Shown in pieces: positions 240 to 43,875 of a DNA stretch of 64,000 nucleotides. The stretch is from Trametopsis cervina (taxonomy: Eukaryota; Basidiomycota; Agaricomycetes; Polyporales; Irpicaceae). The stretch's first letter is position 1, and each line of letters starts with the position of its first letter. A program made the translations under genes and the position numbers. Under the pieces are notes generated by a model. It was not told the origin of the DNA. It saw only the letters and a list, made by a program, of their open reading frames with translations, and ran no database searches. The stretch is from positions 1 through 64,000 of the forward strand of contig MU278380.1 of NCBI GenBank assembly GCA_022385755.1, written 5' to 3'.

Positions 240-2751
240 CTAAACCCTATCCTCAGGTTTAGACTTTATATTTGGTGAGTAACTAGTTTTGTTACAGCTG
301 GCACGAAGAGGCAGATTCTCTTTCGCTGCCTTGCCATACTGCTCACATGTCTTGCTGCGCTCTGCACCAAAGGATGTTAGTGAGTGCCATTAGCTAATAG
401 GTATCTACGTACTTGTATGGCCTTCCTTCCCACATGCGCCGCATGTCATAATTCGTGCGGCCTTCGTCACCGCTGCTACCACCGTAGTAGTGCCGCGTAA
501 GAGAGGTGCAGTGGACATGGCTGCCCTTGGCTGCACATCCACCACCGGGTAGAGCTCGCGGATGAGCATAACGAGCTCTGCGCCGTATTGATCGGCCCTG
601 CCCCACTTGGTCTCGCGCCGGATATCTTCGCCACTGTTAATCTTGTGGTGGTGGACGCAGTCGACAATCCGCCGAAGAGTCTCGTCGGGCATGACAAGAC
701 CGGGTCCTCGGTCCTCGTAGGTTCCTTCGCCGAACTGTGCGATCGTTTTCTCGATGCGCCAGTCGTCCAAAACGTCGCGCAGGTCCATGTCTTGACGGAT
801 GGTGTCGAATTTCCTGAGTCGGGAACGAGCCGGGATGTGAGCGGGTTTATCGATGGATGTGGCTGGATGGAGAGTGTCGATGGCGAGTCGATTGTGAAGA
901 TCGCAGCAGAGGCGAGCAAGAGGGAGGAGACAGCGCTGGCAGCCAAGAGGTTGGGAGGGGTCGCAGAGCAAGTGGTCTGAGACTGAGGATGTCGTGCGTG
1001 AGAGACAACAACACCACGACCAGAAAAGAAACTCACCAGCCTGATCAAAATTGAACGTAAGCGCCAGAGGTGTCTTCCTACACTTCAGCTTTCGGCGCTC
1101 AGCATTGATGAGATCGTCCATCGCCGCCTCCAACTTCCGCTCTTGCTTCTTCGGTTTCTTCGACTCAGCCTCTGGCCTCTCTGCATACCGCATTCGCCTA
1201 CTCTCTTCATCCTCGATCAAGACCTCCGCTGCAGTCCCACTGCCTCCTGCCGGCACTTCACCAGGGCCATCGACGTCAGACTCGCTATCGCCGTCTTCGC
1301 TACCTGAATCGCTGTGGTTATCGCCATCTAAAGGAGGGTTCGTGACAGGGAGAGGATGGATGGCAACAGGAGCGGGGATATTTCCGCGCGCAGAGGCAAT
1401 ACGCTTCGCTGGAGGGTTCTCTCGCTCCTTTCCCTTTCCCAGTCTTGCGGCGTCCCGCTTTCGCTTCTTCACTGCCTGCCCAAGCTCCTTCCGTTTTGCC
1501 GCCTTCTCTCTCTCCTCGTCAAAGTGCTTCGGCTCAACAAGAAAGATTCCTGTCGCCTCTGTCTCACGGCTACGTCCCCAGCGCCCGAACCGCTGCCAGA
1601 GCTCTATTAATGTACATGTAGCCCTAAATTGGATAACTAGTGAGACATCGGGTATGTCTATGCCCTGTGTGTGTATTAGCTTTGTTGTTACACATAATAA
1701 ACTGCCGCTTACCAAACCAAACGAGTCTGTGCAACATATCCCCCATATTTCTCCTAGTCTCAACTTCTCTACATGACCCCGCTTGAACTTCTCCGACATC
1801 TCGGAATGGAACCACACAATCTTGTGCCGCAGCTCTAATGGGAGTATATTCCGTAGAGCCCTTCCCGCGGAGACAGTTTCGGAGATAGTATTAGAAAATA
1901 TTAGGAATTTTGGTGGTGTAGTATTAGGAGGCTGCTGGAGTACAAAAGCAAGATCCTGGTATGAATTGACAGCGTACTGCATCTTGCGGATTGCTATATG
2001 AATATTTGGTCGGTCCGTTGACCGCAGGAGATATAATAATTTGTCCCGCCGCATCATCAGGATTTCGATCACGTCCTCCTTGACTGTAGCGGACAGCGTT
2101 GCAGAGGCTATTGCGAACAGCGTGTTCTTTAATACAACGTGCCGGAGACGGTTGATCATTCGATATTCCGGGCGGAATGTGCCCCATGTACTTATACAGT
2201 GTGCCTCATCGAAGATTACGCTGATGAGGTGTGCTACGAACGCCGGCTTCTTCAACAACTTCTCAAATCCACCGCCCTGCTTCATCAGCTGCTCCGGGCT
2301 CACTATAATCGCCCGATAAAGCCCGTCTTCAATGTCCTATAATAGCTGAGTAACACATCACATTCAGATACCATGTCGCTCTTACCCTAAAGTTCTGCGC
2401 AGTTGCAGACTTGGAATTGATGGAGATAGCTTTGATGCCAGCGCGGTGCAATTGATCCACGTTCTGGTCACCGAGTAGATTAAGTGCTGTTACGATGATC
2501 TGGATCCCTCGTGGTCGGAACAGCATTGGCAGCCAAAACGCCAGCGTCTTGCCGAGACCAGTCCCCATTTCTAACACAACGTCCTCTCCTCGTAGGATAG
2601 CTTGCCCGAAAAGCACTTGCACGCGGCAGGGTCGAAGGCCAAATGCTTGCTGACATTTTGCACGGATGGTATCGACATCAGGGACAGAGGAAGCAGCAGA
2701 CTCAGAAGATAAGCTCGAAGTCGTGTCGTTCCGCTGGTCCGAATTCGACAT
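240..2751 (-). CDS. RecQ-like superfamily 2 DNA helicase with C-terminal zinc knuckle
   Basis: ATP-dependent DNA helicase of the RecQ-like group. I read five exons: 2386-2751, 1713-2336, 1037-1664, 413-976 and 240-361. All splice phases agree, giving about 767 aa. Visible motifs in order are the Walker A variant MGTGLGKT, the DEAH-box stretch FDEAHCISTWG, the motif III-like SATLSAT, the junction-spanning CCTDSFGL|GIDIPDV (the 48-bp intron 1665-1712 is a multiple of three and sits in this motif), and motif VI QRFGRWGR. The ATP-binding and helicase domains are followed by a long acidic/basic linker. The C-terminus carries a CX2CX4HX5C zinc knuckle (CGACGKEGHTKRSKTC) that depends on the last splice at 362-412. 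No RQC or HRDC domain is evident. The start chosen is MSNSDQ, 11 residues inside a longer frame. The helicase call is firm. The last exon is less certain because it runs into promoter- or LTR-like sequence. Confidence 0.8.
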
Positions 2752-3181
2752 GCAGGATATCAGAAAACAACAGCTGATCACACGTCATGAATACTCTCAG
2801 CGTCTGAGTATATTTCGCGCGCTTATGATATTACTTCGCATACCGCTCTTCCGGCCGAGATCAATTCCTTTGATTACTGCTGTTATTTACCAGTCGTCGC
2901 AGGGAGGGTAGCAGGTTAGAGTTCAAAAAAAAAAGATCGCATCAAATAAAATAACACAAACAAACACGCATGTATTACTACTGAATCCCTCGAGACCTAG
3001 CACAACGTTACGCCCTGCTCTCCCGACCGCGGCGAATGGGTAGGAGTCTGGTTCTTTCTGGTTCCGCAGTCGTGGTAGCTCCCCGCACCGAGTGGTACCG
3101 TTAAACAGGCACCCATACGCGCTGCAACAATAGACTCTGAAGTTGAATGAATCGCGTCTGTCTGTGACTATTACGCCAAGG
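2752..3181. promoter_or_regulatory. Intergenic region between helicase gene and transposon
   Basis: There is no plausible coding frame here. It holds the 5' region of the leftward helicase gene. An A-rich run (about 2926-2935) is the only low-complexity feature. The left copy of the 8-bp duplication begins directly after it at 3182, so this is the pre-insertion flank of the transposon. Confidence 0.5.
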
Positions 3182-3189
3182 TGTGTATG
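3182..3189 (+). repeat. Target site duplication, left copy (TGTGTATG)
   Basis: TGTGTATG lies immediately outside the left inverted repeat. The identical octamer lies immediately outside the right inverted repeat at 9314-9321. Eight bases is the duplication length known for P, hAT and KDZ transposons. Confidence 0.85.
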
Positions 3190-3205
3190 CAAGGGGTGTG
3201 CACGC
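3190..3205 (+). repeat. Left terminal inverted repeat
   Basis: CAAGGGGTGTGCACGC. Its reverse complement matches 9298-9313 with one G/A-type difference. Further inward, the left end reads CCCGATATACC where the right end, read inward, has TTTGATACC. This suggests a longer ancestral repeat eroded by C-to-T changes. Confidence 0.85.
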
Positions 3206-3231
3206 GGTAAGCGCCCGATATACCGTGGGGG

Positions 3232-3270
3232 TGGCTGGGTGGCTCGAGGGTCGTTACGAGGATTTTCTGA
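3232..3270 (+). repeat. Subterminal direct repeat, left copy
   Basis: This 39-bp sequence begins TGGCTGGGTGG, has a central GGTCGTTAC and ends TTTTCTGA. It matches 9239-9277 at about 31 of 39 positions in the same orientation. Subterminal repeats are typical transposase-binding or structural parts of DNA transposons. Here the direct rather than inverted orientation is unusual. Confidence 0.65.
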
Positions 3271-3460
3271 ATATCATCTGTATTGACTATTTTTGGTCCT
3301 GGGAATGTCTATTGCTGCATTATAACACTACACAACGTTTGAGAGGGCGATAAAGACCGTTCTGAGCCTTCTGTTATGAAGATGGCAGGATGTGTGACTG
3401 TGACGCTAGTTACTAACGCCAAATTTTCCTATTGGAAGCTTCCTCTTGGACCCTGTCGAG

Positions 3461-6400
3461 ATGTCGGGGAAGAACACGGTAAATGTCGAGACACCGGTAC
3501 GTTTGCCTGCTGCGCGTCGTCTTATCACTGTACATCTCACAGGCATACAGACAGTACCGAACGTCCGACGCTGCACTCCTTGCAACAAGGACGTGATCCT
3601 CAGCTTCGGCGGCGAAAGGTCTTGGGAATCCCACTGTAACAGCAAGGGACACAAGGCGCAGGTATCAGCTCAGCAGTCTTGAAAACTCACGACGTTCTTC
3701 TCTGCAGTGCCCGCAAAATCTCGTTCCATCGCGGGGTCTAAGGTCCATGCGGCCTCTTTACTAGATACGAGCAAAAATGCAAAGGAACCCTTTGCGGTCG
3801 GTTCCTTATGCAATTCCCCCCGCTCATCCACGGTGAGTACATGCGGTTGCTTCTGGTAATATACTGAATACAACTGACCGAGTCACTTAGGACGGCAGAA
3901 CACATCCGCGGACATTACCTGTGTGGCTGCAGACGCTTCAACGGCTGGTTCTAAGCCTTCCGTTGGCCGTGCCTGTTGCTGAGCCGACACAGACCAATCC
4001 GCTAATAGATCTTACACGCTACGCACTCCCTACCGCTCTCTCTGGTCCAGTCGACATCGACGCCGCATGGGAAGACATCAATCACGCTCTGGACAACGCC
4101 GTAGGGTACAATCGGACACCACACGACCTGCAACAGTTTGTGATGCGTGGGCAGTATGGTATGGATGCAGTTTACAGCTGGCTCAGCAGCTGTGCCGAGT
4201 TCTTGGGCAGTGGCTATGCTGGCCTCCTCGAGCCTCGAGTGCTCAAGCTTTGCACTGCCTTGCAGTTATGGTGAGTTCTGCAATAGATCTCTTATGCTGG
4301 TTCTACTAAGACAGTTGCCAGTGGAGCTTCGGTAGGACCTGTAGGTTCGCCATCGCCATTGCGCCACATATCATACCTCCCCGACGAGGCCGCTTCCGAC
4401 AGTGACAGCGATATTGTCATTGTTGAGCATGCACCTTCAGCCTCACCTCCCGTCTTAATTCATTCGTCCCCCTTGCCACTACGTACACCTCGCGTGCAAC
4501 CCTCTGTTGCATGCCACGGCTTTCTCCTTCCTACTCCCTCTAATAGAACACCCTATGACGTCTACCCCTTTGCTCTCCACACTGCGCGCGCACTGCCCTG
4601 GACACTGCGTATCAGTCCGACGGAACTCCGTCTCTTTGCTATGACTTGCCACTGTACTACAACAACTCCTTCCGGAGTTTGTGCACAATGTGCCGGACTA
4701 GACTGAAATACACATGTGATGAGCATTCGTGACCGGATTCTTTTGGGCTATAAGGACGGATCCCCATACAGTCTACTTCCTGTCCCACAGCTTATCGAAC
4801 GTCTGCGGGAGCGCACGGCAGAGCTTAAGCACCTGAAACTACGGGGTCTCAATATCACGCGCAGTCTCGCATCAAAGACTACGGCTATTACGGACTCGAA
4901 GCGCATTCTTATGGCAATTGCAACCCATCCGATTCCTCGCATTCATGTTGTGTTGACAGTGGCTCGCAAGAAAGGACTGGGTGTCAATGGTCTGCTCAGA
5001 CAGCTTGAGCTTGCGCGGCAGAGCCTTTACAAACCGAAAAGCTACGTGGAAGAGGAATTCCATCAGATGGCCTTATTCTCAAGGCTTGGCGGTGCTCGAG
5101 TTGCGTATCTTGCGCAGCAATCATGTAACTTGCCCTCACAAAGAACTACGGACCGACACCTCGAAGTATTGCCACTACGAGCCTCGCCTGGGTACCCTAC
5201 TATGCAGGAAATGGAAACCAACCTCTCTCGGCAGTTCCGGGATGATGAGAACTACGACGAGTTTGCTGGGTTCACCGAAATTGCAGTCTCAATGCCCCTT
5301 GATGAGATCAAGATCGAAGAGCGATTACGATGGGATGCCAAGACAAATATGATCCTGGGCACAGGCCGCGAGCATGGCTCAGAACGGGTAGCCCTTGACT
5401 TTCGGTCACTTGCGGTGGCTGATACGGTGCTTGATGCTTTGATTCACAGTGATCCCGAAGAACAGGTTCATCTTGCGAAGGAGGTACAGATCTTCTTGGT
5501 TCATTGCAACTTGTTTGATCTCTGACGTGCAATTGCAGGCAACTGTTATTGCAGTACGCGTCCATGCACAAGGCCCACGGCTTAATTATGCCCGCCCATT
5601 TGTCGTTTCAGAAACATGCAAGCACGAAGCGGTGTCAAAGCACAAGTCTTTGATCCGCGGTGCACTGAACGCTCTCAAGCAGCATCAGCTCCCGACAACT
5701 TCTCTACAACTTCGTGTATATACTATTGACTCAGATGGTGACAGTAAACGACGGTTAGCTGCTGCTAGCCTTACTCTTGCACATCGGATGTCTGAGTCTT
5801 CACCACTCTATGAAATCCTCCATCGGCTCGAGCTTTTCAACCTCTACTGCGGCGAAGACGACCTCGTATCAAATATCGACTATGATCATATCTTCAAACG
5901 GCTACGAAATACCGGCTTACGTATCAAGGGTATCACCATTGATAATATCTTTCTCACGCCGTCAATCATCCGCCAACACCTTCTTGATAGCGGCCTTGAG
6001 GTTCGGAAGGTCGATACTCTGCTAGCACCGAATGACAAGCAAAATGTTCCTCTTGCGCAGGGGTTTCTGTCTGCCATCACAGCTCTTGTCGAGGATGGCA
6101 AAAATAAACCTCCTGCCTATCGCGAATCTCGTCGTGCCCTCCGTGCTCTTGGGTTTTTCTTTCATCATGCCCTAGTTACTTACACCGACATTCGCCTTAC
6201 CTTAGGGGAACAGCTGGAGCATTTGAGTGCCCTAGCGCACTGTGGACTTGCCTTGTATTCGCAGTTCAAAGGTGGATTCATCCCCGTGCAGCTCTACTTT
6301 GATATCATGACTATGGTCAAAGCCGCATATTTCAGTGTTGCCAAGACACAGGTGGCTAACCCGCACAGCAAATTCTGGCTCATTCTGTTGGGCACCGACT

Positions 6401-9120
6401 CGTTAGAGAAGCTGTTTGGCATTGTGCGCACCATGATCGGGAATGATACCAACGCCGATCAACTACAACTAGCATCTCGTCTCGGAAGTGCTTCCCTTTG
6501 CTCTCAGCTTCTTCAGTTGCATCCAGAATGGGATAAAGGACCTAACCGTCTGAAACTACGGCCAATGGAAGCAGGGGTTGTCTCACGAGATTATGATCAT
6601 ATCACACCAGCACTTTGGATCGGTGATCTCAGTGTTTCGAAGGTAGTTCTTTGGACAAGCTGGAAACGAGGAGCGACTATTGCATCTGAGGAGATGGCCA
6701 GGTGCGGAATTGCCACAACGTTCACGGAGATGCATCAAAACGGCCTCGACATCCTTTGCCCATTTCGAGCTGGAAGTACAGTACTTCTCGCAGGACTTAC
6801 AACGGGAGAGCGGGAGGAAGATGATGACGAGATCGATGTTCCTGTACTTGCCCCCGAAATGCCCGAAAACACCTCTGATCCACAACAGATGGCACCCGAG
6901 CAAGAGAGTATTAATGAAGAACTTGAGCCAGACCTCGAGGACATTGCCAGCGCAGATCCGAACACGAGCTTGCCTGATGAATGCACAGCCACACATGATG
7001 CCTTTGTCGACATTGGTTCCGGGAAGAAACGACACAAAGGCACTGTCCTTAAGATCTACTCGTCTGCGCTCTCTGTCAAAAACTCAAAGGATCGATTGAA
7101 ACGAGTATGTGGCTTATCAACGTTTAATAACACCTCCTACATGTCCATGTCATCATCTCCCGAAGATCTCGACGCCCCAACGACAGCTATCGAGGACCCT
7201 ATTGCGACACTTGTCCGGTGCAATGCTCAGATCTGGCTTGCACTGGGAATCATTGTCGAAATCAAAGTCAACAATGTTCGTGCCTCTTCGCTTCCCACGG
7301 CACAATTGTGCGAGCCGAATGTTCGTTTACGTGTTCAAGTCATGAAGCTCGCAGTTGTGAAGGGTATGATAGAGGGTGACATAGTCGAGCCCTCATCTGA
7401 CGTGCTAGAGGTTGAGGACAATCCCGATGCAGAGCAATGGGAATGGGTTGGTACATATGAGGTCCTGTCCGGCCAAACGTCATCGCGCGAGCTAGATGGG
7501 CGGTTCGTTGAGGCTGTAAACCCGTCTACTGCCTTCTCGTCTCAGCTTGGAAAGGGAGATGAACAGACATACCGCATGTCATCAACCAGTCTGCGAACAA
7601 TTGCCACACTGCTGTTTGAGCGTGTACGCGAGAGCGATGAAGCTAATCAGCTGCCGACAATCAAACTGTCAGATACGTTTCCGTATCGATCACTAAAAGG
7701 TGAGTCTTCCGCGGTGTCACAGAAAACAAACGACTCACGATTGCGCTCAGGTCAAGCCTGTTTTCTGTGTAAGACCGAGGGCGAGTCCGACATCTCCTAC
7801 CAAGATCAATTCCGCTGTGCTCGTTGTCCTATGTTATCCCTCGGAACAGGACCAAAGCTATTGGAGCATATGGGCGCACATATCCTACACGATCAAGTAT
7901 TCCTCGGTGCGCAGGACCCATGTGGCCTGTGCTTGAGTATCAGCGCGTGCTGCGCGGTTCGTCTTGGTAAAGGGACAAGTGGGGCGGAGATTGTTGATCT
8001 AGAGCAGTCGCGCTGCCCCAACCTTTTTAAGATTTCACTCGGTGCTGCGCGGAAATCAACACTTAACTCACCGTGTTCAAATGCCCCTATGCATTGTCCA
8101 CTCTGCCCAATGCCATCGAACGCCGTGTGGCGCTACAATCTGGCTAGTCACCTTCGACAAATCCACAAAGCAAACCCGGACCTATATCGCGACCTGTGGG
8201 TCATTGAAGACAACGAACGCGAAGCTATGCTGCAAAAGTATAACGCAGTCCCTCGTAATCAGGGAAAGAAAAAAGCTAAGGACACACCGTCACGTGCGCT
8301 ATCAGTCTCCACTGGGCATACCTCGTCCATTGTGATAAGGTATGTGATTTGTTTGTGAGGTGCATAGACGACAAACTCAAAATATACTACAGAGACATCA
8401 ATCCGAACAGCGTGCCAATCTCCTTTGGAGATTGGGATGCAGACGAAGAATCATCTGCGCATACCATTCCCGAAGTCAGCATTCGAAAAAGAAAGCATGA
8501 TAGCACTGACCAGCAACATGCTGCGCTTGGTAGCGCGCCCGAAAAAGAGCACGAACTGGCGGCTCAACACACTACGCCCATCCCTTTGTACGAGACCACC
8601 GGTACGTCCCATGCTGCCTTTATAACACTCTCTTGACCTTGCTGCACAGCAGTAGCAGAAAGTTGCAATCAGCCCGATCTGCTCGAGCATCAGAACGACA
8701 CCTCTATGGCAGAGGAATCAAAAGCATCACCTGTACAATATCCTGACGAGAGCGAAGTCCAGTTGCTCTCGGCTCAAAACCACCTGCAAACCGATGATAG
8801 CCACAATATTGATGATATGTATTACTCACCACCGTTGTTACAAAACAGCAGCAATCCGCCTGGTAAAAACGACACCGCCGAGCTTGATATCGCCGAGACG
8901 TTCTGTTCCTGCGGAGGCGATGAATCCGGTGACATGGTTGAGTGTGACAAGTGCGACGGATGGGTGAGTAATTCGTACCTGCTCAATTACACTCGCTCAT
9001 TGACCACTGCACTAGTTTCACTTCGAATGTGTTGGACTAGCACAGGCACCCTCAGCTGAGCGCAAGTGGTTCTGTCCTGGCTGCGCCTCAAGAAAGCGAA
9101 AGCGACGTCGTCGGTACTAG
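3461..9120 (+). pseudogene. P-element-like transposase with zinc fingers and PHD finger, probably inactivated
   Basis: Exons I read: 3461-3496, 3551-3661, 3708-3832, 3891-4270, 4322-5483, 5539-7699, 7751-8339, 8393-8601, 8650-8963 and 9016-9120. In order, the product has an N-terminal U1-like zinc finger (CX2C then RSWESHCNSKGHKAQ). Next is a region starting PLDEIKIEERLRWDAKTN that resembles the first catalytic block of P/THAP9 transposases. Then comes YDHIFKRLRNTGLR, like the P-family HxxKxxRN segment, and LGTDSLEKLFGIVRTMIGND, like the P-family LFxxIRxxGGxND block. A CX2C/HX3H finger and a C2H2 finger (CPLC to HLRQIHK) follow. A complete C4HC3 PHD finger is formed across the last intron, and the tail is RKRKRRRR. 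There are two lesions: a TGA at 4704-4706 inside an otherwise continuous frame, and a phase mismatch of one base between exons 2 and 3, as if one G was lost at the donor near 3662. Hence pseudogene. Confidence 0.75.
8908..9105 (+). other. PHD zinc finger coding segment of the transposase
   Basis: The Cys4-His-Cys3 pattern is read as CSC, CDKCDGW, HFEC and CPGC. It is split by the intron at 8964-9015, exactly after the Trp codon, and all eight ligands are present. PHD fingers of this class usually read histone H3 tails. This one lies at the extreme C-terminus, just before a basic nuclear-localisation-like tail. Confidence 0.8.
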
Positions 9121-9238
9121 GATCACGGAGCGCTCGACGCGCGAGGCTCTATTCCGAGGCTGTGATGTAATAATATCAAACATATGCCTAATATAGCAGT
9201 CGTATGCCCATATATGGAGCGTGAGAATTGATGGCAGC

Positions 9239-9277
9239 TGGCTGGGTGGGCCAGAGGTCGTTACTAATATTTTCTGA
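9239..9277 (+). repeat. Subterminal direct repeat, right copy
   Basis: Same orientation as 3232-3270 and about 79% identical. It lies 20 bp inside the right inverted repeat, against 26 bp at the left end. Confidence 0.65.
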
Positions 9278-9297
9278 CCTGGTATCAAATATTTTCT

Positions 9298-9313
9298 GCG
9301 TGCATACCCCTTG
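9298..9313 (+). repeat. Right terminal inverted repeat
   Basis: GCGTGCATACCCCTTG, the inverted partner of 3190-3205, followed at once by the right 8-bp duplication. Confidence 0.85.
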
Positions 9314-9321
9314 TGTGTATG
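9314..9321 (+). repeat. Target site duplication, right copy (TGTGTATG)
   Basis: Identical to 3182-3189. It is part of a slightly TG/TA-rich local sequence, so a chance match cannot be wholly excluded, but it abuts the inverted repeat exactly. Confidence 0.8.
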
Positions 9322-10027: not shown

Positions 10028-13011
10028 ATGATAGGACGAACTCGAACTCCAGCAGAAGTTCCAGTACGACATCCAACAGCGTTCAGCACGTATGATGGAA
10101 CTGCATATTCAGGGGTACGGAACACCAGCGAGAGTGAATATCGCGGAGCAAATGCATATCAAAGCCCACCCAGGGAAGAGTCTCGCATGTTCGACGCAGA
10201 GCAGATGGGTATGGCCTCTGGAGAGTTTCGCTTTCGAGGTCTATCTACGACTGAAACTCCGTGGGCTCGCAATATGCTTGGCGAACAGGATCGTCGTGAT
10301 CAAGAGCATCGCAACGCGCAGATAAAAAATCACCAAGGTGCACTTCCTGAATGGTCTGAACTGGCTAACGCTCTGGGAGCGCATGACGAAGAGAAGATCA
10401 GAGGTTGTCAGGAAGACATTGACTCCCTGTTGACATTTGTAAGTTTGATACACCAAGGATAAGGTCCTATTCGAGACTAAGCTATCCTTGTTCAGGCTGG
10501 GCTTTTCTCGGCTGCTGTAACGGCATTCAACATTGAGTCATATCAGAATTTGCAGCAAGACTCGGGTGACCTCACCGCCAGCATCCTCATACATGTCTCC
10601 GAACAACTCGTCAACATGTCGGCTCCTGCTGACACTTCTCAGCCAGTAACCAACGTAGCCTATACCACACCTCCCTTTTCGCCGCCTCCTTCGGCCGTGC
10701 GAACCAATGTTCTGTGGTTCGTGAGTTTGACGGTCAGTCTATTCGCTGCATCGCTGTCGCTGCTGGCAAAGCAATGGCTTGGGGAGTATACTCGATCCTC
10801 AGGGAAACACAGCACTCCTGAGGAATACATCCGTATCCGCTATGCCAGGTATGGGGGCTTGAAACGGTGGCATGTCTTCGAGATCGTTGCTCTCCTACCA
10901 GTCCTTCTGCACACTGCCATGATACTATTCTTCTTCGGACTCGGCGAATTCCTGCTCAACATCAATTCGATTGTCGGAGCACTCGTCACCACCTGCGTAG
11001 CCGGCTGGCTCTTCCTCTTCGGAATCACCACCATCGCTCCCGCTCTTTCCCCAGACTGCCCCTACGTTACCCCTCTTGTGCAGCCCAGCATTCGCACGGT
11101 CCGGTATGTAGTCTGGCGCTTTTGGTCGCAGTTCATATCGCCAACTAGGACACTACGCAAATACGAGAAGTATCCTGGAGACGAAATGGGGGTTCGCCGA
11201 GACACAGAGTTGGATTTGCTTGCTTTGGTGGAAGCAGATAAATTATTCATGGACGACGGATTTTTCGACAAGGTCGTGCGATTGTGTCTGCGGCGGATGC
11301 CCGGCAAGGGTGTCGTATTCTTTGTGCGCCAATTTATCAAGCATCGAACGGGTCACGCCTCCAAGGATGGACCGCTGTTATCTGTAGACGATTTCTCTCA
11401 TCTGAGCACTCGGGCCCTAGTTGCAACAACGGAAATCCTGTCACATCATTTGGAGAGAGTGATGCGTTCTCACACGAAAGCCAGCGACATCGTCCATGAA
11501 TGGGCCCAAGACTCCTTCGATTATATCCTCACAGCTCTCGAACATTGTGACAAGGCGCCTCGTGATCCAGGACCCGTTGCCGTTAGCACCTCCAATCTTT
11601 TGGCAGTGCTGCTGACTTGCGGACGTCCCGCTATCAAGAAAGTGCTGATAATGCTGACGCACAAGCCGCGCGTACTATCACACTTACACTTACATAAAAT
11701 CCCTGTGGAATGTGAGTTGCCTATCATGGCTACATATTTTATTGTCACGTCCTAACCTGACGCATTTACTGGCAGCTATACCAGAGGCATTCCATTGTAT
11801 TGCAGAACTGGTCCAGGAGAAAGCGCTAGGATCTATTGACCTTTGTGCGACTTTATTACAATTCGTTGATCACTGGGCCGCCCGCCACCGACACCTTCCA
11901 AATAACCCGTTAGTAGATGTGCTCCCCTTCGAACAACTGGTAGATATTCTCCGCGATATTTCTCTCCACATTCAGGAGGAATATGGCCCAAACCTCGGCA
12001 CACTGGCACTCGGCCCAGCTGATCAGGACAAATTCCGGAATTGTAAGGGATTGCTGGGTGCCCTGTCCAGTATGGCTGAACGTCAGCTTTCTGACGATCT
12101 CGGCGCTGTACTGGATCTCGTTTGCGGAGGACCGTTGCTACCAGCTCCTTCCGCCCGTGCTTCTCAAGAGGGGTTCCTGTCTCTGCTGCCGGGGGCCGTG
12201 TCAATGACCCCACTACCGCTCCCAAACACACTGTTGTCGCTGCCTGAGGAGATTTCATCATCGTCACGGCAACCTACAACACTGCCGCAAGTTGATTCAC
12301 CAGCAGAGGGTACACTTTCATCGATTCCGGAGGAGTCCGTATCTGAGCTCGAAGAAGATTCAAGGATGGAGCGATATGCGACGGCTGGCTTCATTGATTC
12401 TCCGTCGTCGTTCGAGCGATCAGTGGACAGGACAAGATTTGCGCCGGACCTGTCCTTTGAATTCCTCCTAGTTCTCACCTCGGAGGACCTACAAGAGCCC
12501 TTCCATATGATGCCTTGTCCAGCACGAATATCAGACTTGGATGTCTCTGACGCAGATTGGGAAAACTTGGTGGAAGTGAGTGTTACATACTCGTTCGTAT
12601 GGATTGTTTCTTATGGGGGATTTGCAGGACGTGTATGATTTCTGGCAAAGGGGCGGTCAAGCGTACTTCAACGTTGGCGATCTTATGAGCATCTGGAACG
12701 ACATGTTTTTCTCAAGACGTGGGGTGGAACTAAAGCTCTTATTGGCACGCCATGACGACGATCCACACAGCCCTGAGCGAGCCAGTATGGATGACAGAGA
12801 GGATCAAGATTTGAGGTCGAGACAAGAAGACCCTGGTTCCTTCCGCATATATCTCAAGCCTCTGCCACAACCACAACAAATGTTCGAACGCGCATCGTCA
12901 AGAGCGTCGTCATCTCACGACTGGGTCATTCACGTTACACCGCCGTCAAGCCCTTCCTCCATCAACTCGCATATAATATATGGAAACGATCCAGATCAGC
13001 TGTCACCGTAG
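10028..13011 (+). CDS. DUF6535-type basidiomycete membrane protein, paralogue 1
   Basis: Four exons: 10028-10438, 10496-11711, 11776-12575 and 12628-13011, all in phase. The conserved DUF6535-like core begins near WSELANALGAHDEEKIRGC. Its helix LLTF|AGLFSAAVTAFNIESY crosses intron 1. Predicted membrane segments follow in exon 2: NVLWFVSLTVSLFAASLSLL, a segment around LLPVLLHTAMILFFFGLGEF, and VTTCVAGWLFLFGITTIAPA. The remaining half is soluble, helical and low-complexity. Function is unknown; families of this type are expanded in Agaricomycetes and often sit in variable regions. The protein is clearly homologous along its whole length to the gene at 14566-17585. The start is the first ATG in frame after which homology-compatible sequence runs on; an upstream start is possible. 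Confidence 0.8.
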
Positions 13012-14565: not shown

Positions 14566-17500
14566 ATGCGACGCCCCCAGCGAAAGCCAACGGTCTTCAG
14601 CGCATACTCTGGTTATACTGGACTTAGCAACAGTAACGAAGAAGATCGTGACGGACATCATGAATGGGCCGAACTGGCAGATGCCCTAGTAGAGCATGAC
14701 GAGGAACAGATAAGAGCGTGTCGAGAGAGCATCGATTCTCTGTTGACATTTGTGAGTCTGTCTGCTGAGGTGTAGTTTTTTTATACCCATGAGTATACCT
14801 AGGCGGGTCTGTTCTCAGCCACGGTTACGGCCTTCAACATTGAGTCATACAAGACTTTACAGCAAGACTCAGGAAGCCTGACTTCCGATATCCTTCTGCA
14901 CGTCTCCCAGCAGCTTGCCAATATGTCTGCTGCTGTGCTCAATTCATCGGAGGTAGTAACTCAAGTGGCCTATACTGCCCCTTCATTTCAGCCGGCTCGT
15001 TCAGCTGTGCGGACGAATGTACTGTGGTTCTGGAGTCTAACTGTCAGTCTCTTCACGGCATCACTCGCCATCCTCGCTCGACAATGGCTCGGAGAATACT
15101 CTTCTGGAAACTATAGTAATGCAGAAGAATATATCCGCATTCGGCACGCCCGATATGAAGGCTTGAAACGATGGGGCGTTTTTCAAACCGTCGCTGTTTT
15201 GCCGGTCCTGCTGCACACCGCCATCATTTTGTTCTTCTTTGGGCTGGGCGGATTCTTGCTCAATATCAACACAATCGTCGGTGCGACGGTCACGAGCGTT
15301 GTGGCTGGCTGGCTGTTCCTATTTTCAGTGGCCACCATCGCCCCTGCTGTTTCTCCCGATTGTCCATACATCACACCGCTTGTGCAGCCAAGTATACGGT
15401 CCATTCGCCACCTAGTATGGCGGTTCTGGTCGCATTTCCAACCACTCTCTATCCGCACACTACCCAGATTGTCTAAGTACTACAGTTTTCCCGGAGACGA
15501 GATGGGCATCCGTCGAGACAAAAGTCTGGATCTGCCAGCCCTAATTGAAGCAGATAAGCTATTCATGGACGACGACTTGGTTGACAAAGTCATGCGCTTA
15601 TGCTTGCGACGAATTTCCGGCAGGGATGCCGTTCAATTCCTCCACGGATTCATGAGGCATAGGTTAGGTCGTTCATACTCCCTCAATGCCTCCCTTGCGT
15701 CCATTGACTTCACGAGGATAAGTACCAGGGCATTGGTGGCAACTATCGACATACTATCCTATCATCTGAGGCTTACCATGCGCTCTTCTACGAAAGCAAC
15801 TGATACCGTTCTGGACTGGGCACAAGAGTCTCTGGCCTATATCTTCGCCGCCGCTAAGCATTGTACCGATGTGTCTCGCGATCCCGGAGTCTCCATTTCC
15901 AGGAATACATCCGACATCTTGATGGAACTACTTAGCTGTGGACGGCCTGCACTTGGAAAACTCATAGAGATGTTGGTGTATCAGCGCGCCGAAATGAAAT
16001 ATATCCGATTTTCTGACATCTCAGCCGAATGTGAGCCATCTTTCAGCAATGTCTCACAGTCTTTCAGGCTGATGTCATCTTTGATCTGTAGTCTTATCAG
16101 AGGTATTGCACAGTGTTAAGGAATTGTCTAAGGGGCCGACGCCTCTGGTAGACCTTTGCTTCACCTTGCTCCAATTCATACACCAATGGGTCATTGTTTC
16201 TCCAGGCCTTCCAAGCAACATATTGTTCAATGTGCTTCCCATCGGTCAACTGACCGACACGCTTCGTGGCATGACACATGACCTTCTACGAGAATACTCA
16301 GCGAATCCGCATGCATTCGATATTAATGCACAGGCGCGAGCTCGAGCCGCTCAACACTGTTTGCATACTCTATCCAATATCATTCAGTGGCCAATCTCAA
16401 GCGATCTTCATGGTGCTCTCGAGCACATCGCTGGAGGTTTTGCTCCTCCCACCCCTAATCAGGCCCAGGCTCTGCTTGTGATGACAGGACCACCACCACC
16501 GCTCTCTCGTGCCTCCACAGCGACCGGCATGCAAATGCATTCATCCCCGAAAAGCATTTTAGTCACCCCACCTCCAACAACCAAACCGTTGTTGCCGACC
16601 TTGCCAGAAACAGCCACCCTAACAGTGTCATCTCGCACGACACCACTCCCACTACTAGAGACATCACCTCGACGACAACCGGTGACGCTGGCACAGCCGC
16701 CAGCACCAATATTGCCTCCAGCAGCACCCCCACAAGAACCTACCCCACCTCTAGCAGTATCACCACAAGAACCTATTTCGCCTTCAGCGACTCTAGTCTC
16801 AACAGTATCACTTCCAGCTGTTGTGCCGCCGCAACCGGGACGTACGCCATCCCCCTCATCTCATATCAATGTACCAACTGTGCGAGACTCCACAACTCAT
16901 CCTATAGAAGCGATGAATGCTGACTACAACTTGGACCAGGATGCTCTACAGTCCGAAGCAGTATTCGCTATGGCTGGTAATGAAACGTCGAGGGTTCCGC
17001 GTTCCTCTCAATTATCATTCGGGCGACCAGTAGACCGGACAAAGCTCATATCAGACCTTTCATTCAACATTCTTCGGGTGCTCACTTCTGATGACGTACA
17101 AGACCCCTTCAGATTAAAGCCATGTCCTAAAGCGATATCCGATTTGGATGTATCCGCAGTGGATTGGAAGAACTTGATACAGGCACGTGTAGTACACATT
17201 GATTATGTATCTGACAGCTGAGGCAAAGTTTCTGTAGGATCTTTATGAGACCTGGAAACGAGGCGGCCAGATACGGACCGACCTCGATGGGCCTCTAAGG
17301 AAGTGGAATGATGCGTTCTTCTCGCAACGCGGCGTCGAGCTATGGTCAGCGCACTTCAGTCGTATCCAGAGCAGCATCGATGGCTCTTATACAAACGAGA
17401 ATAAGGGAGACGATGAAGCTGGGCTTACGCTGAGACCCGAAGAAGACGTAGATTTCTTTGGGATATATCTCAGGCCTCTGCAGAGAAACCGTACATTTGA

Positions 17501-18601: not shown

Positions 18602-18685
18602 GGCTACCTGGCGCAATGGTAGCGCGTTTGGCTTCGATTGCCTAACGGTACCAAAAGGTTGCAGGTTCGAGTCCTGCGGTGGTCA
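18602..18685 (+). tRNA. tRNA-Arg (anticodon TCG) with 12-nt intron
   Basis: A complete cloverleaf can be drawn: acceptor GGCTACC/GGTGGTC, D stem GCGC/GCGC, anticodon stem TTTGG/CCAAA, T arm GCAGG-TTCGAGT-CCTGC, and discriminator A. The anticodon TCG is at 18634-18636. The intron TTGCCTAACGGT (18638-18649) is at the canonical position after base 37. A T run (18686-18690) serves as the Pol III terminator. A sequence-identical gene lies on the other strand at 21444-21527. Confidence 0.85.
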
Positions 18686-21443: not shown

Positions 21444-21527
21444 TGACCACCGCAGGACTCGAACCTGCAACCTTTTGGTACCGTTAGGCAATCGAAGCCA
21501 AACGCGCTACCATTGCGCCAGGTAGCC
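21444..21527 (-). tRNA. tRNA-Arg (anticodon TCG), second identical copy
   Basis: Exact reverse-complement copy of the tRNA at 18602-18685, including its intron. The 3' side runs into TTTT on the minus strand (ATTTTGTCC). Flanking bases differ from the first copy, so only the gene itself is conserved. Confidence 0.85.
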
Positions 21528-43185: not shown

Positions 43186-43875
43186 TTTTAGCGATGTAGT
43201 GTTCGGGTAGGCTGAAACGCGAGAACGTAAGATGGGGATTGGGGACCGAGATCGTCTGGCTGTAGGGTTCTGGTACGAAGATGAGGATCCTTATATGTCG
43301 GGCGATGCCGAAGCGGCGAACTGTGCTTGGGCCACACGGTTTGGCCTGCGCAGCGGCCATGTCTTCCCAGGAGTAGATAATAACACAGGATGTTCGTGGA
43401 GACTCTAGAAAGCGGAGACTAGAAAGATTCTTCTCCACGATACTGTACAGTACAAAGACAACAACAAGGACTGCTGATAATTAACGTGACAAACGCGTGA
43501 CAGGTACGCGTTACTGCACGCGTTCAGCCCTGTCGCGTATTCGCGTAAGTGATTATATCGACTTTGTCGCATCCTGTGTATACACTTTGTCGCATCCTGT
43601 GTATACACTTTGTNNNNNNNNNNNNNNNNNNNNNNNNNNNNNNNNNNNNNNNNNNNNNNNNNNNNNNNNNNNNACTTTGTCGCATCCTGTGTATACACTT
43701 TGTCGCATCCTGTGTATACACTTTGTTCTAGTATAATGTATAGTAGGTATGTTATTGTCATATGAACATACGAATATCTGTAGCCAGATAACACGAACTG
43801 TATGTCTCATTAATACCGACACAACCGCCAAGCAGTAAATAGAAAGCTCACGATATGTCCTGCACACCCTAGAGC
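43186..43875. other. Intergenic region with minisatellite and assembly gap
   Basis: About 690 bp between two leftward genes. Apart from the 23-bp repeat array and the N gap, no gene is seen. Open frames that run through the N gap merely translate the repeat. Confidence 0.7.
43561..43727 (+). repeat. 23-bp tandem repeat interrupted by a 60-base N gap
   Basis: The unit is ACTTTGTCGCATCCTGTGTATAC. Two full copies plus ACTTTGT precede the gap, and two full copies plus ACTTTGT follow it, all identical where readable. The unit ends in the palindrome GTATAC. N occupies 43614-43673. Perfect copies on both sides suggest that the gap hides more copies and that its true length is unknown. Confidence 0.9.

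Follow-up and report, generated by a model that had tools for sequence, protein, structure and literature searches.

The first 64,000 nucleotides of a contig of the wood-decay polypore Trametopsis cervina (the window) contain, at positions 3190-9313, what is very probably a 6.1-kb class II, cut-and-paste transposon of the P-element type. Its only gene codes for a transposase in which a C2H2-type finger, a coiled coil and a helix-turn-helix (HTH) region are followed by a DDE core of the RNase H-like type (D498, D624 and E848), itself interrupted by a helical insertion, and by a C-terminal extension with a small barrel, a Cys/His-rich segment and a PHD finger. An earlier note on this DNA had proposed a P-element-like transposon at this position, and that interpretation is supported with the qualification that the element departs from classical P: no THAP domain was found, the GTP pocket is altered, and the C-terminal extension is long. 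The PHD finger, the subterminal repeat and an in-frame TGA, all described below, go beyond what that note had listed.

The boundaries of the element are marked by an identical octamer, TGTGTATG, on either side (3182-3189 and 9314-9321, plus strand), directly inside which lie 16-bp terminal inverted repeats (TIRs): CAAGGGGTGTGCACGC at 3190-3205 on the plus strand, starting with CA, and CAAGGGGTATGCACGC at 9298-9313 on the minus strand, the plus strand ending there in TG. Both features, which are among the criteria for the P superfamily, had been described in the earlier note and were confirmed, the TIRs pairing at 15 of 16 positions. Among the 20143 pairs of identical 8-mers that lie 232-20000 bases apart in the window, none adjoins a better 16-bp inverted repeat than the one formed by the ends of the element, the runner-up pairing at 12 of 16. 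In 300 windows simulated with a first-order Markov model, the maximum was 14 (in one window), and 15 was reached in none. N was excluded from these simulations; the window includes a gap of 60 N at 43614-43673, and with N left in, 16 of 16 was obtained in 8 of 60 simulated windows, an effect that we attribute to this gap and that was gone once N was excluded. The octamer occurs one additional time elsewhere in the window, close to the chance expectation. Internal to the TIRs are 39-bp direct repeats on the plus strand (3232-3270 and 9239-9277), identical at 31 of 39 positions (79%) compared to at most 22 in 30 shuffles, and the left copy is a candidate transposase binding site.

Several peptides had been cited in the earlier note as matching P/THAP9-type transposases. 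All are present in a single frame, spliced at GT-AG introns, that runs from 4719 to 9120 and is open for 1380 codons, and they map to the catalytic residues and motifs of P transposase. The same gene is represented by a deposited hypothetical protein of T. cervina (P0001; 1683 aa), which is 100% identical to the window gene across the searched core and whose numbering is used below. In the alignment to P, PLDEIKIEERLRWD contains the first catalytic Asp (D498, at 5301-5303), DHIFKRLRN is the DxxHxxKxxRN motif, and LEKLFGIVR contains the catalytic Glu (E848, at 6406-6408). The second Asp, D624, is at 5734-5736, with DxxHxxKRxRN at 5878-5910, NDKQNV at 6031-6048, and D845 at 6397-6399. This D-D-E triad is homologous to D230, D303 and E531 of P and is kept in 49/51, 46/46 and 51/52 cases at the aligned columns, and the spacing of the DxxHxxKxxRN and DxxExxFxxxR motifs is identical to that in P. 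Structure prediction, which had been suggested as a test of the P-element interpretation, favoured it: the predicted core has an RNase H-like fold into which a predicted P-like domain is inserted after the second Asp and before the Glu, and the transposase of the Drosophila P element matches it best by far, well ahead of the next family.

Comparison with studied systems places these similarities beside clear differences. The element shares with Drosophila P (6p5a/6pe2) the 8-bp duplication, the RNase H core with helical insertion, the aligned D-D-E and the motif spacing. Drosophila P is described as having a THAP domain, 31-bp TIRs, 11-bp internal inverted repeats and a GTP cofactor that makes its transposase unique among transposases (PMC7776569), whereas the element described here has a C2H2-type finger where classical P has the THAP domain, 16-bp TIRs, a direct subterminal repeat, mostly changed GTP contacts, and a C-terminal barrel and PHD finger. 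As described for zebrafish Pdre2/THAP9 (PMC10983969), that system also has short TIRs (13 bp, CA..TG), subterminal repeats and an 8-bp duplication, but it keeps the GTP-interacting residues, and its internal repeats are inverted, as in Drosophila P (PMC7776569, PMC10983969), in contrast with the direct repeats found here. P superfamily elements in rust fungi, including Melampsora copies with 8-bp duplications, were already reported in 2011 (PMC3164196). Those rust elements (P-1_PSt, P-1_MLP and P-2_MLP), which we compared by description only, also come from Basidiomycota, but from Pucciniomycotina rather than Agaricomycetes. To our knowledge, Pdre2/THAP9 carries no PHD tail, and our literature searches, which cover neither Repbase Reports nor most subscription journals, turned up no description of an Agaricomycete P-type clade with such a tail, so one may be in print.

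To place the gene in a family, two protein searches were made: residues 100-700 of the window protein as query gave 63 matches, and 21 relatives gave 76, of which 17 had already been found. These searches score only entries that share exact words, up to a ceiling of about 8000 candidates, and the at least 122 distinct entries they returned (P0001-P0122, fragments included) may therefore have broader relatives. Most are named hypothetical or uncharacterized, with some labelled as PHD-type zinc fingers, one as a predicted protein and one as beta-lactamase-related; about 20 are metagenomic, with no organism given. The named organisms, judged by their genera, we take to be all Agaricomycetes, ranging from Agaricales to Auriculariales and Cantharellales. 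At least two distinct members are found in each of 25 species (grouped by name), and four same-species pairs are at least 90% alike, as expected for a mobile family. Two members from Crassisporium funariophilum (P0013 and P0019), for example, are 92% alike, and Phanerochaete sordida also has two (P0020 and P0022); the Irpex lacteus member P0002 is 74% identical to the window protein across the searched core. In the 29.4-Mb, 59-contig T. cervina assembly, in which contig C33 begins with the window, queries with the core protein and with either end recovered no locus but this one, which is a lower bound. The earlier note had proposed asking whether other copies share the boundaries; the search gave neither copies with differing duplications nor copies whose similarity runs past the ends. 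With the relatives' proteins as query, a decayed second member was detected on contig C26 (at about 4690-5450 of the segment 362000-371900), an N-terminal fragment with stops that is 23-30% identical over long matches and in which a search for terminal repeats found none. The same queries matched a stand-alone C2H2 finger on contig C5 (about 4577-4696, minus strand, of the segment 1000000-1009900), 38-54% identical to the family finger, which is either a host gene or a relic.

A number of observations weigh against a straightforward assignment to P. The link to P came exclusively through profile-profile and fold comparison: the spliced window protein gave no P-type Pfam match at E values up to 10, TNP-like_RNaseH_N was matched by one exon alone (E 0.28) and by 7 of 24 family members (best E 0.015), and P was absent from PDB searches with the single protein, with the core profile, and with the full profile, for which the best 60 of 71 matches were PHD-like plus a few stray ones. 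Crude patterns for the four core motifs all matched in 33 of the 122 family entries, a set that includes many fragments. Nor was the THAP domain (PF05485) matched in the window protein or in 24 members, although this domain is usual rather than universal, being carried by 24 of 120 listed P superfamily proteins, many of the others fragments. Of eight GTP contacts (fly numbering; the alignment is less certain here), D528 and V401 are kept and F443 is mostly Y or F, while K385, K400, S409, D444 and N447 are changed; among 30 P proteins, the fly residue is retained in 29 at S409, 28 at F443, 28 at N447, 27 at D444, 23 at K385 and 15 at K400. As a criterion for the P superfamily, however, GTP contacts are a property of the studied enzymes. 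Together with the long C-terminal extension, the missing THAP match, the changed contacts and the indirect link to P could indicate a separate superfamily, sister to P and due its own name, with the same fold and catalytic core but a different cofactor, DNA-binding head and tail. Such a reading partly coincides with the favoured one as regards mechanism and departs from it over membership. Given that the 8-bp duplication and CA..TG ends are as in P, that the structural match stands so far above the next family, and that the motif spacing is identical, we consider this unlikely, if a serious competitor.

Other counterpoints concern the locus itself. With a single copy in the T. cervina genome (a lower bound), and with TIR-like sites (at most 2 mismatches) no commoner than those of a control pattern (47 compared to 58), the ends rest on a single insertion. 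The one full copy, the multi-exon gene and the relatives throughout Agaricomycetes would also suit a domesticated transposase, that is, a host gene flanked by repeats through coincidence. This we regard as very improbable, considering the duplication and 15/16 inverted ends set tightly around the gene, a combination that none of 300 simulations equalled, the retained catalytic residues, the variable copy number and similar paralogs in other species, and the decayed member on C26. Least probable of all is another superfamily making 8-bp duplications in these fungi. Such duplications are typical of hAT elements, and Pfam holds models for both the hAT C-terminal dimerisation domain and KDZ (Kyakuja-Dileera-Zisupton); the former was not matched in the 24 members, and the latter was not among the 17 families that they matched at E up to 1. 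KDZ elements are described from basidiomycetes with 7- or 8-bp duplications, 8 bp for Zisupton and a Dileera element (PMC12730594). Rehavkus elements, a MULE outgroup of arthropods and annelids, have 9-bp duplications.

The P-type gene itself shows probable damage near its N terminus. P0001 extends the window model with N-terminal exons starting at 3461 (residues 1-327, 3461-4676, plus strand as for all exons; splicing uncertain), and these cover the C2H2-type finger CTPCNKDV...HCNSKGH, as in relatives (3572-3652). A zinc-knuckle-like CxC...CxxC segment follows at 4647-4691, and an in-frame TGA stands at 4704-4706 in a segment that is protein in 7 of 7 relatives examined. The deposited model bypasses this TGA with an intron that also deletes the second half of the segment, including half of the conserved CxxC. 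This copy is probably damaged, or else translation starts at 4719; the TGA and the uncertain splicing count against the favoured explanation. The exon 4719-5483 encodes the coiled coil, HTH region and D498, and 5539-7699 encodes D624, E848 and the start of the C-terminal extension, including a predicted small beta-barrel domain, weakly Tudor/BAH-like (6997-7698). Downstream are exons for a Cys/His-rich, probably zinc-binding segment (7751-8339), a linker (8393-8601), and a linker with the first half of the PHD finger (8650-8963; PHD 8904-8963), and the last exon (9016-9120) holds its second half, the basic tail RKRKRRRRY and the stop TAG.

By analogy with the P pathway, a transposase dimer would pair and cut the ends and then join their 3' termini to the target at positions 8 bp apart, so that TGTGTATG comes to stand on both sides. 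Judging from the domains, the N-terminal finger may bind the subterminal repeats, the terminal repeats may be bound by the HTH region, and the PHD tail may bias target choice. The T. cervina PHD finger probably reads histone H3 tails, which would favour insertion toward gene starts. The element did insert upstream of a helicase gene (405-2784, minus strand; DEAD and Helicase_C domains), which we read as RecQ-like and whose start faces it; the distance to the first ATG of that gene (2751, minus strand), its probable start codon, is about 430 bp. This fits a preference for gene starts, although it is one case, and with a PHD half-motif in 29 of 122 family entries, of which 10 have the cage tryptophan, histone reading is not certain family-wide. 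Because most fly GTP-contact residues are changed, the insertion domain probably does without GTP in positioning the ends, or uses a different ligand for it. A fuller picture, which we offer tentatively and rate as possible rather than likely, is a GTP-independent P-type clade in mushroom-forming fungi, its pocket rebuilt around PNDKQDV and a histidine and its insertion steered by the barrel and PHD tail.

In the left flank, about 70 bp (2982-3051) are repeated at four other places (contigs C15, C16, C2 and C5; 81-89%) and end outside the element, as a short dispersed repeat. Farther along the window are a pair of neighbouring, co-oriented DUF6535 genes (10481-11755 and 14803-16119), and tRNA genes at 18602-18685 (plus) and 21444-21527 (minus) with equal scores and opposite orientation, perhaps an inverted duplication.

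The assignment gives a name to at least 122 database entries, fragments included, that are labelled as hypothetical or by a stray domain, and provides one copy with defined ends. With the PHD tail, nature provides an example of a transposase and a possible histone reader combined in one chain. Finally, a divergent clade that retains the P catalytic core while most GTP contacts differ makes it possible to ask directly whether the P mechanism depends on GTP or acquired it secondarily.
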